This document shows positions 13,110 to 17,384 of a DNA stretch of 21,848 nt, piece by piece; position 1 is the stretch's first letter; each line of letters opens with the position of its first letter. The stretch lies in the IMG/VR virus record IMGVR_UViG_3300035070_000490, positions 1 through 21,848 of that record, one strand, 5' to 3'. Both the position numbers and the translations under genes were made by a program. The notes beneath the pieces were generated by a model. That model did not search any database, was not told the DNA's origin, and saw only the letters and a list, made by a program, of their open reading frames with translations. The stretch is from a virus.

Positions 13110-15343
13110 TAGAAACTAACCTCCGCGATAAGACCGTTAACCTGTAGCGACAAAGGTTCTGGCTGAGTGATTATTACTTGTGGGTCGCGATTGTACCCAA
13201 GAAGTCGGAACTCTTTCTTTCCACTAACCGCAGTACGTTCAGCACTAAGGTCACTGGTTGTCGTTCGTATAATTAGTCGAGTGCCATTAACATCCATAGA
13301 AAGAGTATCAACCACATCTGCAATTACACTTCCAAGTGTGCGTGGCAAACCTGTTAATGGGCCAGCACTAAGCCGAACGTCGATTGGATTGGTGGTCAGG
13401 TTTACACCAAACTTTATGCCAATCTCTGCGCTGGTAAGTGTTGCATCAATTCCAGATACATCGACCTCACCGCTTGCGACAACAACATCACCATAGTAAT
13501 TTGTTCCGCTTACAACACTAAGAGTAATGCCATCCTCAAAGTCTGCGCTCACATCAAAGACGCCAGCAGTACCTGAGTATGTCTTGGATACATCCAAGTT
13601 GGAGTCAGCAGTTAGCTCAACCAAAACGTAAGAATTTGCACCACCACCATCAACAAAGGTGCCAGTTGCAAACACTCTATCATCCACGACAGCAAGTGAC
13701 TTGAAAGATATAGGAGATGTGAACTCAGTCCACGCTGCTCTTTGCTCACCCCTGTTCGAGTTAAACACAGAGATAGTGCCATCATCATTGATCGTGAATA
13801 TGTATGATTCACTCTGATTGATTGCGCCTTGCAGCACACCAATGTCATGTGGCCGCTTAATCAGGTGCGGTGCCAAGCTAGAGATGGCTTGTGATGTGTA
13901 GGCAGCTTCACTGTCTGAGTATAGGAACTCACGCGCAATAACGCCGTTGTGCTGAATAAACACAGTCCCGCCATCAAGCTGAGACGGAGAAGCATAGTTA
14001 CATCCAAACGGAGTTTGCTTAGCAATCTTTACATTGGTCGGTGTAAGTGGACCGCTTTGCAATGTGCTTACCAGAAGCTCACCAGTAGCCGCAAATACTT
14101 GCAGGTCACGGTTGGAAAGAAGGTGGCGGATTTGGTTTACCTCACCAGTAGCAGAGGTAAGCTGCACTGAGTCAGAAGCGTCTGCATCACCCTCATCAAA
14201 CTTAAAGTATTGAGCGGAGTTGCTCATCCATATGGTGTCAGGCTGAGAAGGAGTGCCAGCGAGAACGAAGCGGTTTTCATGAAAAGTAACCGCCGCAGGG
14301 TATCCTCGATACGGTGAGATAGATTGCTCAGCCCAAGATAAGGTTGCAGCGCCAGTTACAATTCTAACGTAACCGCCACCATCAACACCATCTGTTGCAG
14401 TATGACCTATATCAACGGTGTAGGTGTTCTCGTCAATAATATCCTCAATGGAATAAGTATCATTGATTTGAGCAGAGCTAAGCCCGCCAAATGCAGAAGC
14501 ATTCTCAATCGTTATGCTGTCACCAGCCAAGAAGCCATGGTCGATATGAGTGACGGTAACGATATCACTTCCATCAGCAGAGCGCAGCGCATTAAAGATT
14601 AAATTCTGCACAAGCGTCTTAACAATATTGCCAGTAGCAGATGTAGCATTTGCCACAGCGGTAATTAGAATCTCTGAGTTGTGGTAGCGAAGGCGCGTAC
14701 CAACATGAGCGGCAACAAAGAAGTTATTGCTGGTTGTAAGCGTTGATCCATTACCTGTGGTAAGAGATGAGGATAGCGTAGTCCCTGCCGCTTGAAACGT
14801 GTAGTACGGCTGGAATGTGTAGCTATCATCGGCACGTTGTAGGAATGCAAACGTCTCTACTTGGAACGTGGTCCCTCCAGTGCGTCTAATCATGCGGGGC
14901 ATAAACAGCGGGTGACAGATAAACATCACATCACCAGATTGAGCGTAGGTGTATTCGTGCAGGTAGTCCTCATCGAACGGAAGTGCGGCGGAGTCTACAT
15001 CCTGAGTAAGTGTTGTTGCTAGGGATACAGCGCCAGTAGTAGGGCTAATCTGGTAAATAGCCACGCGAGCATTTTGAAGTACAATGATATACTCTTCGTC
15101 ATCAGAGAAGATGAAGGGCAGTGCTCTAGCTTGCACAGTCTTGCTTGCATCGTAAGTAATGTTAGATAGGGCACCGACGTTCTGAAAGCCGCCACGTTTT
15201 TTTACACCACCCTCTGAGCGAATGAGAAAGTTCTCCACACGCTGACCAGAGTTTGTGTAAACCGCGCTGTCCGTCCGAGAAAGCAAAGACGGATTCACCT
15301 CCCCAAACTGGAAGCTACTGATTGGAACCCGAACCTTTTGCAT
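13109..15343 (-). CDS. Tail tubular protein B / nozzle (T7 gp12-like)
   Basis: The 744-residue product is close in length to T7 gp12 (794) and lies between the gp11-like and gp14-like genes. It forms the nozzle at the tip of the short tail, to which fibres attach and through which DNA passes. The N-terminus (ISSFQFGEVNPSLLSRTD, then NFLIRSEGGVKKRGGFQNVG) is characteristic of the family: a short segment in which the tail protein binds its assembly partner, followed by the R-rich GG motif. Further family features are PLFMPRMIRRTG near residue 156, RGYPAAVTFHENRFVLAGT near residue 346 with PDTIWMSNS, and the beta-propeller-like middle. Overlaps of one base (TAATG) on both sides couple it to its neighbours. 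I am confident in this call. Confidence 0.93.
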   Translation of the reverse strand: MQKVRVPISSFQFGEVNPSLLSRTDSAVYTNSGQRVENFLIRSEGGVKKRGGFQNVGALSNITYDASKTVQARALPFIFSDDEEYIIVLQNARVAIYQISPTTGAVSLATTLTQDVDSAALPFDEDYLHEYTYAQSGDVMFICHPLFMPRMIRRTGGTTFQVETFAFLQRADDSYTFQPYYTFQAAGTTLSSSLTTGNGSTLTTSNNFFVAAHVGTRLRYHNSEILITAVANATSATGNIVKTLVQNLIFNALRSADGSDIVTVTHIDHGFLAGDSITIENASAFGGLSSAQINDTYSIEDIIDENTYTVDIGHTATDGVDGGGYVRIVTGAATLSWAEQSISPYRGYPAAVTFHENRFVLAGTPSQPDTIWMSNSAQYFKFDEGDADASDSVQLTSATGEVNQIRHLLSNRDLQVFAATGELLVSTLQSGPLTPTNVKIAKQTPFGCNYASPSQLDGGTVFIQHNGVIAREFLYSDSEAAYTSQAISSLAPHLIKRPHDIGVLQGAINQSESYIFTINDDGTISVFNSNRGEQRAAWTEFTSPISFKSLAVVDDRVFATGTFVDGGGANSYVLVELTADSNLDVSKTYSGTAGVFDVSADFEDGITLSVVSGTNYYGDVVVASGEVDVSGIDATLTSAEIGIKFGVNLTTNPIDVRLSAGPLTGLPRTLGSVIADVVDTLSMDVNGTRLIIRTTTSDLSAERTAVSGKKEFRLLGYNRDPQVIITQPEPLSLQVNGLIAEVSF

Positions 15344-15933
15344 TAGTAACTCCGACGTTCAGCAATAAACCTAGATGTGTTGAGCTTGCGCGTTGTCTGC
15401 TGCTGCGAATCAAGAGTGCGAGCCTTGGTCATCTGATTGCGAGAACGCTCTTCAAACAAATTTGCTAGAGAAGCATCACGGGCAATAGATGTTGCAAATA
15501 TTGAGGCCATAGAAAACTGAACGGCCAGAGCAAAGTACGCTGGCCAGTCAACCTCAAGGACACGGAAAGTATAATCGCATATCAGTACAGACGGTTCACT
15601 AGCATTGCAGTAAATCTTATCGCCGTACTTTTGATATTCAATCGGGTAATCATTTTCCGTAACCGCGTGAACCATAAGCGTAGCGGAGGGAATCTGATAA
15701 GCTGCATCGTATCGACCAGTCGGAGCAGCGGATAAGCGGTTAAGAACGGCTTGGTCTGTAGCAAAGCGCCAACGTGTATTAAGCAAAGATGAGCGAGCAA
15801 CATCCTCATACATGTTAGCAGCAACGAGTGCTTCCGTTGTCTGGTCTTCAAACGAAGTTAAGGGTTCGGCTCCAATAAGAACCAAAGCCCTAGCGCAAAT
15901 GTCGAGTGGTGAGTTGGTTGCAGTTGATGCCAT
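15343..15933 (-). CDS. Tail tubular protein A / adaptor (T7 gp11-like)
   Basis: At 196 residues it has the same length as T7 gp11, the ring that joins portal to nozzle. The family signature is visible: PLDICARALVLIGAEPLTSFED at the N-terminus, EALVAANMYEDVARSSLLNTRWRFA near residues 35-60, then YQIPSATLMVHAV and a helical C-terminal part. The ATG at 15933 is the only reasonable start, since the next methionine is near residue 42. Yet the 15 bases just before it hold no Shine-Dalgarno sequence, only the C-rich arm of a hairpin. An AAAGGA lies beyond that hairpin and would be 7 nt away if the hairpin folds. The stop overlaps the gp12-like start by one base. Confidence 0.93.
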   Translation of the reverse strand: MASTATNSPLDICARALVLIGAEPLTSFEDQTTEALVAANMYEDVARSSLLNTRWRFATDQAVLNRLSAAPTGRYDAAYQIPSATLMVHAVTENDYPIEYQKYGDKIYCNASEPSVLICDYTFRVLEVDWPAYFALAVQFSMASIFATSIARDASLANLFEERSRNQMTKARTLDSQQQTTRKLNTSRFIAERRSY

Positions 15934-15968
15934 AATAGTTAGGGGGGGCTTAGACCCCCCCTTCCTTT
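15934..15968 (-). promoter_or_regulatory. Stem-loop between capsid and gp11 genes that may position a distant ribosome site
   Basis: On the minus strand, just after the capsid TAA, there is AAAGGA (15963-15968). A perfect 8-bp stem follows: A plus seven G at 15955-15962, paired with seven C plus T at 15941-15948, around a 6-base loop TCTAAG. Then come AACTATT and the gp11 ATG. When folded, the AAAGGA comes to lie 7 nt from the ATG, an ideal spacing, as described for T4 gene 25. The place is also that of T7 terminator Tphi, but no U-run follows on this strand. On the plus strand TTCCTTTTT follows, so it could stop antisense transcripts. The hairpin itself is certain; its role is inferred. Confidence 0.7.
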
Positions 15969-16778
15969 TTAGTTGTTGTCGAGGACTTCGTACACGCCGT
16001 TACTATCAATAACGATTGCGCCCATAGACATCATGGATGTCGCAAGGTGCGATACTTTTTGTGGTACGTAGTTGATCTCAGTTTGAACATCAGAGTTGAT
16101 GCCGAGGCCAACAGCGCGTGTGTGGTAAGCAAAGTTCTTACCGCCAGCTACAGCAGACGTTGAGAAGAACTTGAAGCCCAAGAACTCTTTCATTGTCATA
16201 CCGCCAGCAAACGGAAGGTTCTGCGGACCAACATAGTCAGACGATGCAAACTCGTCGATGTTGAACAAGTCTGCAAAGCCAGCAGGTGACATAGCAACAT
16301 AACGCTGGCCATCTTCTGGAACATCCGCTGCACCAAATGTCTCAAACAATGTAAGCAGGTCAGCTTTGTCGATAGCGCCGCCTGTATCACCGATCTGAGT
16401 AGCGTTAGCACCAGCATCAAGAGCAACTGTCAGAATCTCATCAGTCTTGCGACCAAGGGCCGAAGCAGCAGATTCAGCAATAGCTTGACGCTCGTTGATG
16501 TTGATCTTCAACTCGTCGAGTTTGTCGATGTATTCCGCAGCATAGAAGTCTGCCATGGTTGCTTCGACGTTGGTGTGTACCAGCTCCATTGCAGTTACAT
16601 CGCCGTTGCGAGATTTAGTGGAGGCAGCGCCAGCACCAATCTTTTGGAAGCGAGTAGTTGTACCAGTCACGTTTGCCGTGCGGACAGTGTTACGCAGCTT
16701 CGAACCCATGCGCTGATATGCCATGTGCACATCGGATTCGAACTGCTTGATGAAGGCTTGGTCAATTGTATTAGCCAT
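15969..16778 (-). CDS. Major capsid protein (Phage_capsid_2-like)
   Basis: The product has 269 residues and is expected to form the icosahedral shell with the HK97 fold. I chose ATG 16778, because AGGAA at 16787-16791 lies 8 nt upstream; the frame could extend to a TTG at 16784, but that would leave only 2 nt. The N-terminus (FIKQFESDVHMAYQRMGSKL, then VTGTTTRFQKIGAG) resembles the Phage_capsid_2-type capsid family of other podoviruses more than T7 gp10A (345 residues). The middle (ESAASALGRKTDEILTVALDAG, RYVAMSPAGFADLF, TMKEFLGFKFFST) fits the usual A-domain and P-domain order. No slippery site with a second long frame, as in T7 gp10B, is visible. It is followed by the strong hairpin. The capsid role is well supported by content and by scaffold and tail neighbours. 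Confidence 0.9.
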   Translation of the reverse strand: MANTIDQAFIKQFESDVHMAYQRMGSKLRNTVRTANVTGTTTRFQKIGAGAASTKSRNGDVTAMELVHTNVEATMADFYAAEYIDKLDELKININERQAIAESAASALGRKTDEILTVALDAGANATQIGDTGGAIDKADLLTLFETFGAADVPEDGQRYVAMSPAGFADLFNIDEFASSDYVGPQNLPFAGGMTMKEFLGFKFFSTSAVAGGKNFAYHTRAVGLGINSDVQTEINYVPQKVSHLATSMMSMGAIVIDSNGVYEVLDNN

Positions 16779-16865: not shown

Positions 16866-17384
16866 TCAGTGCAGTACGGGCCGTGATGACAGATTGTAAA
16901 CATTCTTAGTGTCTGAATTACAACGCACAAAATGCACAAACTTATTACTGTTAATATCTTCAGTGATAAACTGAGACTCAAAACCAAGCCAGCTTAGCCA
17001 TTGGCAAATTTTATCGTTACCAATCCAAGTATCTACAGATATTTTTGGATAGTGATTGTGAAGGAAGTTAATCAATCCGCGTGAGGCGCGTATGAATGAC
17101 ACCCAGTTATCCTTCATGCCCTCGGCGAATAAACACCAGAACAATCCTTCGGTATTTGAAATGTACTCCAATCCCAATATGGCAAGTGGCTGGCCATTTT
17201 TTTCCACAACAAAAACATCAGCATCACCAACCAAAGCGTTTAGCTGCTCAAGGAGATCAGCATCATATATCTCGCTCATCTCATGTCGCGTTTCCTCACT
17301 GGCCGTAAGGAAAAACGGTAGGACATGCCGCTCGTCAAACAAGACAAGCGACAAATCTCTACTGTTTAGTATGGCATTAGCCAT
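16866..17384 (-). CDS. GNAT-fold, DUF2833/T7 gp13-like virion-assembly protein
   Basis: The product has 172 residues. Its plan resembles the DUF2833 family of T7 gp13, a factor needed for virion assembly: a beta-stranded core (DVFVVEKNGQPLAILGLEYI, residues about 56-75), a WCLFAEGM segment, a helix (WVSFIRASRGLINFLHN), then VDTWIGNDKICQWLSWLGFES (residues about 117-137), which is the last strand-helix pair of GNAT acyltransferases. Whether it binds acetyl-CoA is doubtful: I see no clear Q/RxxGxG/A pyrophosphate loop. In T7, gene 13 lies after gene 12; here it lies between scaffold and capsid. The start overlaps the scaffold stop by 8 nt. A TTGTGCGTTG motif falls inside it near the 3' end, before the capsid gene. 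Confidence 0.7.
   Translation of the reverse strand: MANAILNSRDLSLVLFDERHVLPFFLTASEETRHEMSEIYDADLLEQLNALVGDADVFVVEKNGQPLAILGLEYISNTEGLFWCLFAEGMKDNWVSFIRASRGLINFLHNHYPKISVDTWIGNDKICQWLSWLGFESQFITEDINSNKFVHFVRCNSDTKNVYNLSSRPVLH
16921..16930 (-). promoter_or_regulatory. TTGTGCGTTG motif within the gp13-like gene, upstream of capsid
   Basis: This exact copy of the 10-base motif shared with 6143-6152 and 20212-20221 lies inside coding sequence, 142 nt before the capsid ATG. With TTGTGC as a -35-like element, AAGAAT falls 17 nt downstream as a fair -10-like box, but the other copies have no comparable box. Because it is in a reading frame, it may be coincidence; as part of a set it is a candidate promoter for the capsid block. 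Confidence 0.3.

Follow-up and report, generated by a model that had tools for sequence, protein, structure and literature searches.

In bacteriophage T4, mRNA structure is known to bring a distant Shine-Dalgarno (SD) sequence closer to its start codon. At gene 25 it cuts the spacing between SD and AUG from 27 to 11 nt, as demonstrated by mutations, DMS probing and reporters, and at gene 38 it lowers this spacing from 22 to 5 nt (PMC3014915). In the split ribosome binding site of Escherichia coli thrS the ribosome touches the mRNA before and after a structured element (PMC3936740). That site differs from the locus described here in that its upstream single-stranded region is a standby site set apart by structure, and the gap between SD and AUG is not bridged (PMC3936740). 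The closest counterpart in gene order is the junction of gene 10, the terminator Tphi and gene 11 in bacteriophage T7, which likewise places a strong hairpin between the capsid gene and gp11. In T7, by contrast, a U6 tract follows the stem and the gp11 AUG has an adjacent AAGGAGG of its own, a proximal SD combined with a true terminator. Our search of the open-access literature, with subscription papers mostly outside its reach, found no description of the capsid/gp11 junction considered below.

The window, by which we mean the whole stretch of 21,848 nt analysed from IMG/VR virus record IMGVR_UViG_3300035070_000490, has a 35-nt intergenic gap between its capsid and gp11 genes (15934-15968, minus strand). 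From the upstream to the downstream gene, the order along the minus strand is as follows.

15969 to 16778, minus strand: major capsid gene, with ATG at 16778 and the stop codon UAA at 15971-15969 (PHROG 3437, E=4e-60; Pfam PF19821, E=5.5e-65)
15963 to 15968, minus strand: AAAGGA, the putative distal SD, read from the sequence and directly abutting the 3' side of the capsid UAA
15955 to 15962, minus strand: 5' arm of the stem, AGGGGGGG, from sequence and folding
15949 to 15954, minus strand: loop UCUAAG, from sequence and folding
15941 to 15948, minus strand: 3' arm of the stem, CCCCCCCU, from sequence, folding and covariation in relatives
15934 to 15940, minus strand: AACUAUU, the 7-nt spacer from hairpin to AUG, read from the sequence and without a U-tract
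15343 to 15933, minus strand: gene for a gp11-like tail tubular protein A, with ATG at 15933-15931 (PHROG 394, tail protein, E=9e-35)

The sequence-only reading of this stretch had proposed that the gp11 ATG has no ribosome site nearby and that folding of the stem leaves 7 nt between AAAGGA and ATG. Both statements are borne out: no SD occurs at a linear spacing of 3-12 from the gp11 start, and excision of the stem yields AAAGGA, 7 nt and AUG. By the same metric 12 of the 14 gene starts in the window have an SD at normal spacing, the only two without one being gp11 and the gene whose start is at 17384. The duplex of AAGGA with the anti-SD is moderate (-3.6 kcal/mol), with an aligned spacing to AUG of 5 nt once the hairpin is excised. 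Weak pairing is predicted between the two G of this SD and the CU in the spacer. The stem does have the 8 bp first ascribed to it, but is not made of G and C throughout, comprising 7 G-C pairs and one outer A-U pair. Every stem pair has a predicted probability of 0.99-1.0, the stability of the hairpin is about -18.5 kcal/mol, and an inner U-G pair could tighten the loop to 4 nt. A search of the window against Rfam at the curated score matched no family.

The likeness to T4 gene 25, also part of the sequence-only reading, holds as well: the gene 26-25 junction has the same succession of SD, stem-loop, short spacer and AUG, and by our metric its leader has no near SD either. There are, however, several differences. 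In T4 the two genes, 26 and 25, overlap and the hairpin is part of the upstream coding sequence, whereas that of the window is intergenic and immediately follows the stop codon; the T4 structure is weak, its 40-nt leader folding at about -8 kcal/mol; and the window layout precedes an unrelated gene in an unrelated phage group, where it alternates with a proximal-SD layout. Gene 38 resembles it in its structure-shortened SD-AUG spacing (PMC3014915), although gene and phage differ.

Folding energy alone sets the locus only modestly apart from chance, the surrounding 100-nt stretch having a z of -1.9 with 4 of 200 shuffles folding equally well. The decisive evidence beyond chance is comparative, namely the same layout, with predicted stems that covary, in more than 120 distinct relatives. 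Six scans of viral contigs gave at least 405 gp11 starts and at least 210 distinct leaders, of which 206 were analysed under a strict core-stem rule. Classes were set only by the sequence after the hairpin and blind to the upstream side: class P leaders have an SD there, while class D leaders have none and reach the AUG within 13 nt. By these definitions 128 leaders fell into class D (distal), 76 into class P (proximal) and 2 into neither. As the leaders are related to one another, tree-based pairs and shuffles were used to allow for kinship.

All 206 leaders carry a hairpin, and in none was the stem lost while gp11 still lacked a near ribosome site. An SD upstream of the hairpin is found in 119 of the 128 class D leaders as against 17 of the 76 in class P. 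When compared with shuffles of their own bases, 62 of 67 class D representatives have this upstream SD (mean in shuffles 41, maximum 49), and class P has no clear excess (6 of 29 vs 3.7). The hairpin-to-AUG distance in class D is most commonly exactly 7 nt (77/128) and falls within 5-9 nt in 122 of 128, even though the hairpins themselves span 16-43 nt and some are of wholly different sequence. The linear SD-AUG distance accordingly varies from 22 to 53 nt; with the hairpin removed, spacing peaks at 5-6. Capsid starts of the same phages, measured in the same way, have an SD in 101 of 103 cases at a spacing of 4-7, with a peak at 6. Median SD accessibility is alike in the two classes (0.41 in D, 0.40 in P), so that weak pairing of the SD is common to proximal sites too. 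In class D the distance between the putative SD and the AUG is therefore normal only when the hairpin is left out of the count as a looped-out segment, and across the leaders an SD stands either before or after the hairpin, which matches what a hairpin-bridged ribosome site would require.

The comparison of this junction among relatives, suggested at the outset as a check, thus came out in favour of a hairpin that moves a distant SD close to the start of gp11: the upstream SD recurs, the distance after excision is nearly constant and the stem ends covary. In an alignment of 31 class D leaders over a nine-pair stem, 31 cells were changed on both sides compared with 10.5 in shuffles. The covariation score was 0.275 against 0.082 when shuffled (0/500), was best at slide 0 and dropped when the partners were slid. 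An independent count of the outer pair found it paired in 56 of 57 cases, compared with 30 after shuffling. Five central G-C pairs are invariant, and the ends of the stem, with its closing pair, account for the signal; the weakest hairpin in class D has -11.9 kcal/mol. The predicted stem is, on this evidence, kept by compensatory change in the relatives.

Both layouts occur 3' of the capsid gene and also 3' of an inserted small gene; the layout is therefore not a by-product of the gene upstream. On an unrooted gp11 tree of 96 representatives, itself only a proxy since junctions recombine, layout changes about nine times, with four of the nine changes forced by supported branches. Among nine path-disjoint pairs of one D and one P leader, the upstream SD was lost where a downstream SD appears in mostly eight, with the reverse in none in most draws; supported branches alone leave four pairs, with which a sign test cannot reach 0.05, given the weak support of the tree. 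Two contigs (L270, distal; L271, proximal) encode an identical gp11 protein behind opposite layouts. Comparison of the leaders shows that a putative distal SD with a short spacer and a proximal SD with a longer spacer replace each other. In the L270/L271 pair the upstream gene end and the leader differ, and the start of gp11 marks a recombination junction.

Taken together, we give a probability of roughly 0.82 to the reading that the 35-nt gap serves gp11 as a ribosome binding site of the hairpin-bridged kind ('split' or 'accommodated'). The anti-SD of 16S rRNA would pair with AAAGGA directly after the capsid stop codon, while the very stable hairpin would remain folded and looped out, leaving an effective AAAGGA-AUG distance of about 5-7 nt, as is normal for these phages; 30S subunits would thus use the site with the hairpin folded. 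During termination at the UAA of the capsid gene a ribosome would occupy the SD together with some of the 5' arm, so that the site may fire only once this ribosome has left and the stem has refolded. Such delayed firing would hold the yield of gp11 below that of capsid, and we infer a regulatory effect on the capsid:gp11 ratio in the form of lowered gp11 yield.

The foremost alternative is that the hairpin is a transcription terminator or a 3'-end stabiliser of the capsid mRNA, analogous to Tphi, and that the purine stretch upstream is incidental. The element does sit at the position of Tphi, between the capsid gene and gp11, as the sequence-only reading had pointed out; a stem followed by U6 is present at this junction in the outgroups Vibrio phage 1.257 and MT838907; and the hairpin is kept in both layouts. 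The terminator part of the earlier proposal is not supported in the window, however. There is no U-tract 3' of the stem on the coding (minus) strand, where the tail reads UAACUAUUAU, and a terminator scan calls the element only on the plus strand. UUUU follows the stem within 9 nt in just 4 of 128 class D and 12 of 76 class P leaders, and termination would leave the upstream SD, the 7-nt spacer and the swap in SD position unexplained. We consider it unlikely as the principal function, though partial termination or protection of the mRNA 3' end may take place at the hairpin. Shared ancestry of the window hairpin with Tphi-like terminators is plausible, because the position is that of Tphi and the outgroups have a classical terminator there, and the hairpin probably descends from an end-of-capsid terminator or 3'-end hairpin such as those of the T7 and outgroup junctions. 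The path would lead from a terminator hairpin with a proximal SD, through loss of the U-tract and of that SD, to initiation from an SD located at the stop codon of the capsid gene. Such a path is plausible because T7 combines the U6 of Tphi with a proximal SD and two outgroups have the stem with U6, its direction being unproven on an unrooted tree.

Improbable to a greater degree is termination-reinitiation, whereby ribosomes that have finished the capsid gene at its UAA would remain bound to the mRNA with its AGGA and move on to the AUG, with the hairpin only shortening the path or stopping the scanning. Translational coupling is common in phage operons, and the class D SD overlaps the stop codon or begins within 4 nt of it in nearly all cases. 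An SD hugging the stop codon is, however, also usual where there is no hairpin (L035, L040, L044), and pure coupling needs neither a stem of about -12 kcal/mol or better nor a fixed 7 nt after it. Reinitiation and the bridged site are in any case compatible and do not exclude one another. We give very little credence to SD-independent initiation at an open AUG, with the hairpin keeping the region clear of other structure: the spacer and AUG are predicted to be fairly unpaired, and two pelagiphages, Hodr (L093, 2286-2344) and Baldr (L099, 2532-2604), have a hairpin ahead of gp11 that no clear SD precedes or follows, but the upstream SD of class D exceeds own-base shuffles and nearly all of the capsid starts measured above rely on an SD. 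A frameshift between capsid and gp11 in the style of T7 10A/10B was rejected, as the stop-to-AUG length modulo 3 varies (38/17/12) and the gp11 frame is open in only 13 of 67.

By protein similarity, the nearest isolate among the matches listed is Pelagibacter phage Hodr (capsid 50%, gp11 42% identity). A nucleotide search of the isolate collection returned only a short match to the scaffolding gene, in five roseophages, and no isolate there had the junction at the DNA level. In MW202742, MW202572, MW202631 and MW202645, the stretches that match gp11 carry the feature annotation 'major capsid protein', probably in error.

Some leaders carry further conserved sequence. Five of class D (L203, L223, L258, L353, L387) have longer hairpins with the common interior GUCAAGGYAUYAACUUAC, whose outer stems differ and still pair; the interior suggests a conserved binding or folding motif. 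In others (L018:3852, L085:3853, L213/L216/L218/L232/L233:1439, L230:869) a second conserved element, CCCCC-UUGGUUAGGGUUCGCACUGCGAUA-GGGGG, lies between the hairpin and the proximal gp11 SD. It is promoter-like or a hairpin and has one copy per locus; we rejected the post-hairpin motif of L018 and L085 as a general phage promoter, since in the loci examined it is single-copy and stands only before gp11.

The bridged layout also stands before other genes. A scan of viral contigs for the pattern SD, G5-N6-C5, 5-9 nt and AUG gave at least 120 matches; among the matches listed, 60 lie in front of gp11 homologues and a further group in front of the gene for an unrelated helix-turn-helix protein of 92 aa. 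An equivalent scan of genome contigs was little informative, its loci (at least 119) being mostly G+C-rich chance matches with one gp11 homologue among those listed. Among relatives of the helix-turn-helix gene, 15 distinct leaders have an SD, a hairpin with a UUCG or UUUG loop, 5 nt and AUG; others have an SD, then a larger conserved structured element, then AUG, and many family members have neither. The occurrence of the layout before this unrelated family indicates that it recurs independently.

Bridged sites, known from two T4 genes, are to judge from these leaders apparently widespread and exchangeable in a large group of marine phages, which adds comparative depth to the mechanism. More tentatively, and with slightly less than even confidence, we suggest that they would form a common, exchangeable class of phage start, arising from gene-end hairpins, placed before unrelated genes and sometimes holding a large, switch-capable RNA between SD and AUG. 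Gene finders and translation models use the linear SD-AUG distance and would score such starts as lacking an SD. The natural swaps of layout before gp11, moreover, provide matched pairs for measuring the effect of a hairpin in the gap on 30S initiation and on the capsid:tail ratio.

Several further leaders came to light around these genes. The larger element of the helix-turn-helix relatives, AAGGAGUUUCGGGGGGAAAGCGGAUGC...GCAGCGAGUACCCCCACCCAAACAAC with a variable middle, lies between the SD and AUG of the 92-aa gene (at about 1370-1503 in most of L654, L662, L664, L713, L715, L718, L722, L725, L663, L666, L726, L673, L682, L670, L656 and L729); nothing in Rfam matched it up to an E-value of 5, and it is possibly an undescribed regulatory RNA. 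A third type of leader in this family (L659, about 600-715; L728; L724) is marked by a long hairpin with imperfect pairing (about 105 nt, -46 to -48 kcal/mol) ahead of the AUG; in L659 and L728 an SD immediately precedes the hairpin. Before a small phage gene family (MEKRIFSEDKD...; L433, L440, L442, L529), AAGGAGAGGGGGGAGAAAUCCCCCCUUUUUUACAUG forms a full intrinsic terminator, U6 included, between SD and AUG. Finally, three different genes (L490:5723, L506:3552, L527) share a single leader, GACAACCTGTAAAGGAGGCGGGGGC..., as if this putative bridged leader formed a module with interchangeable genes downstream.
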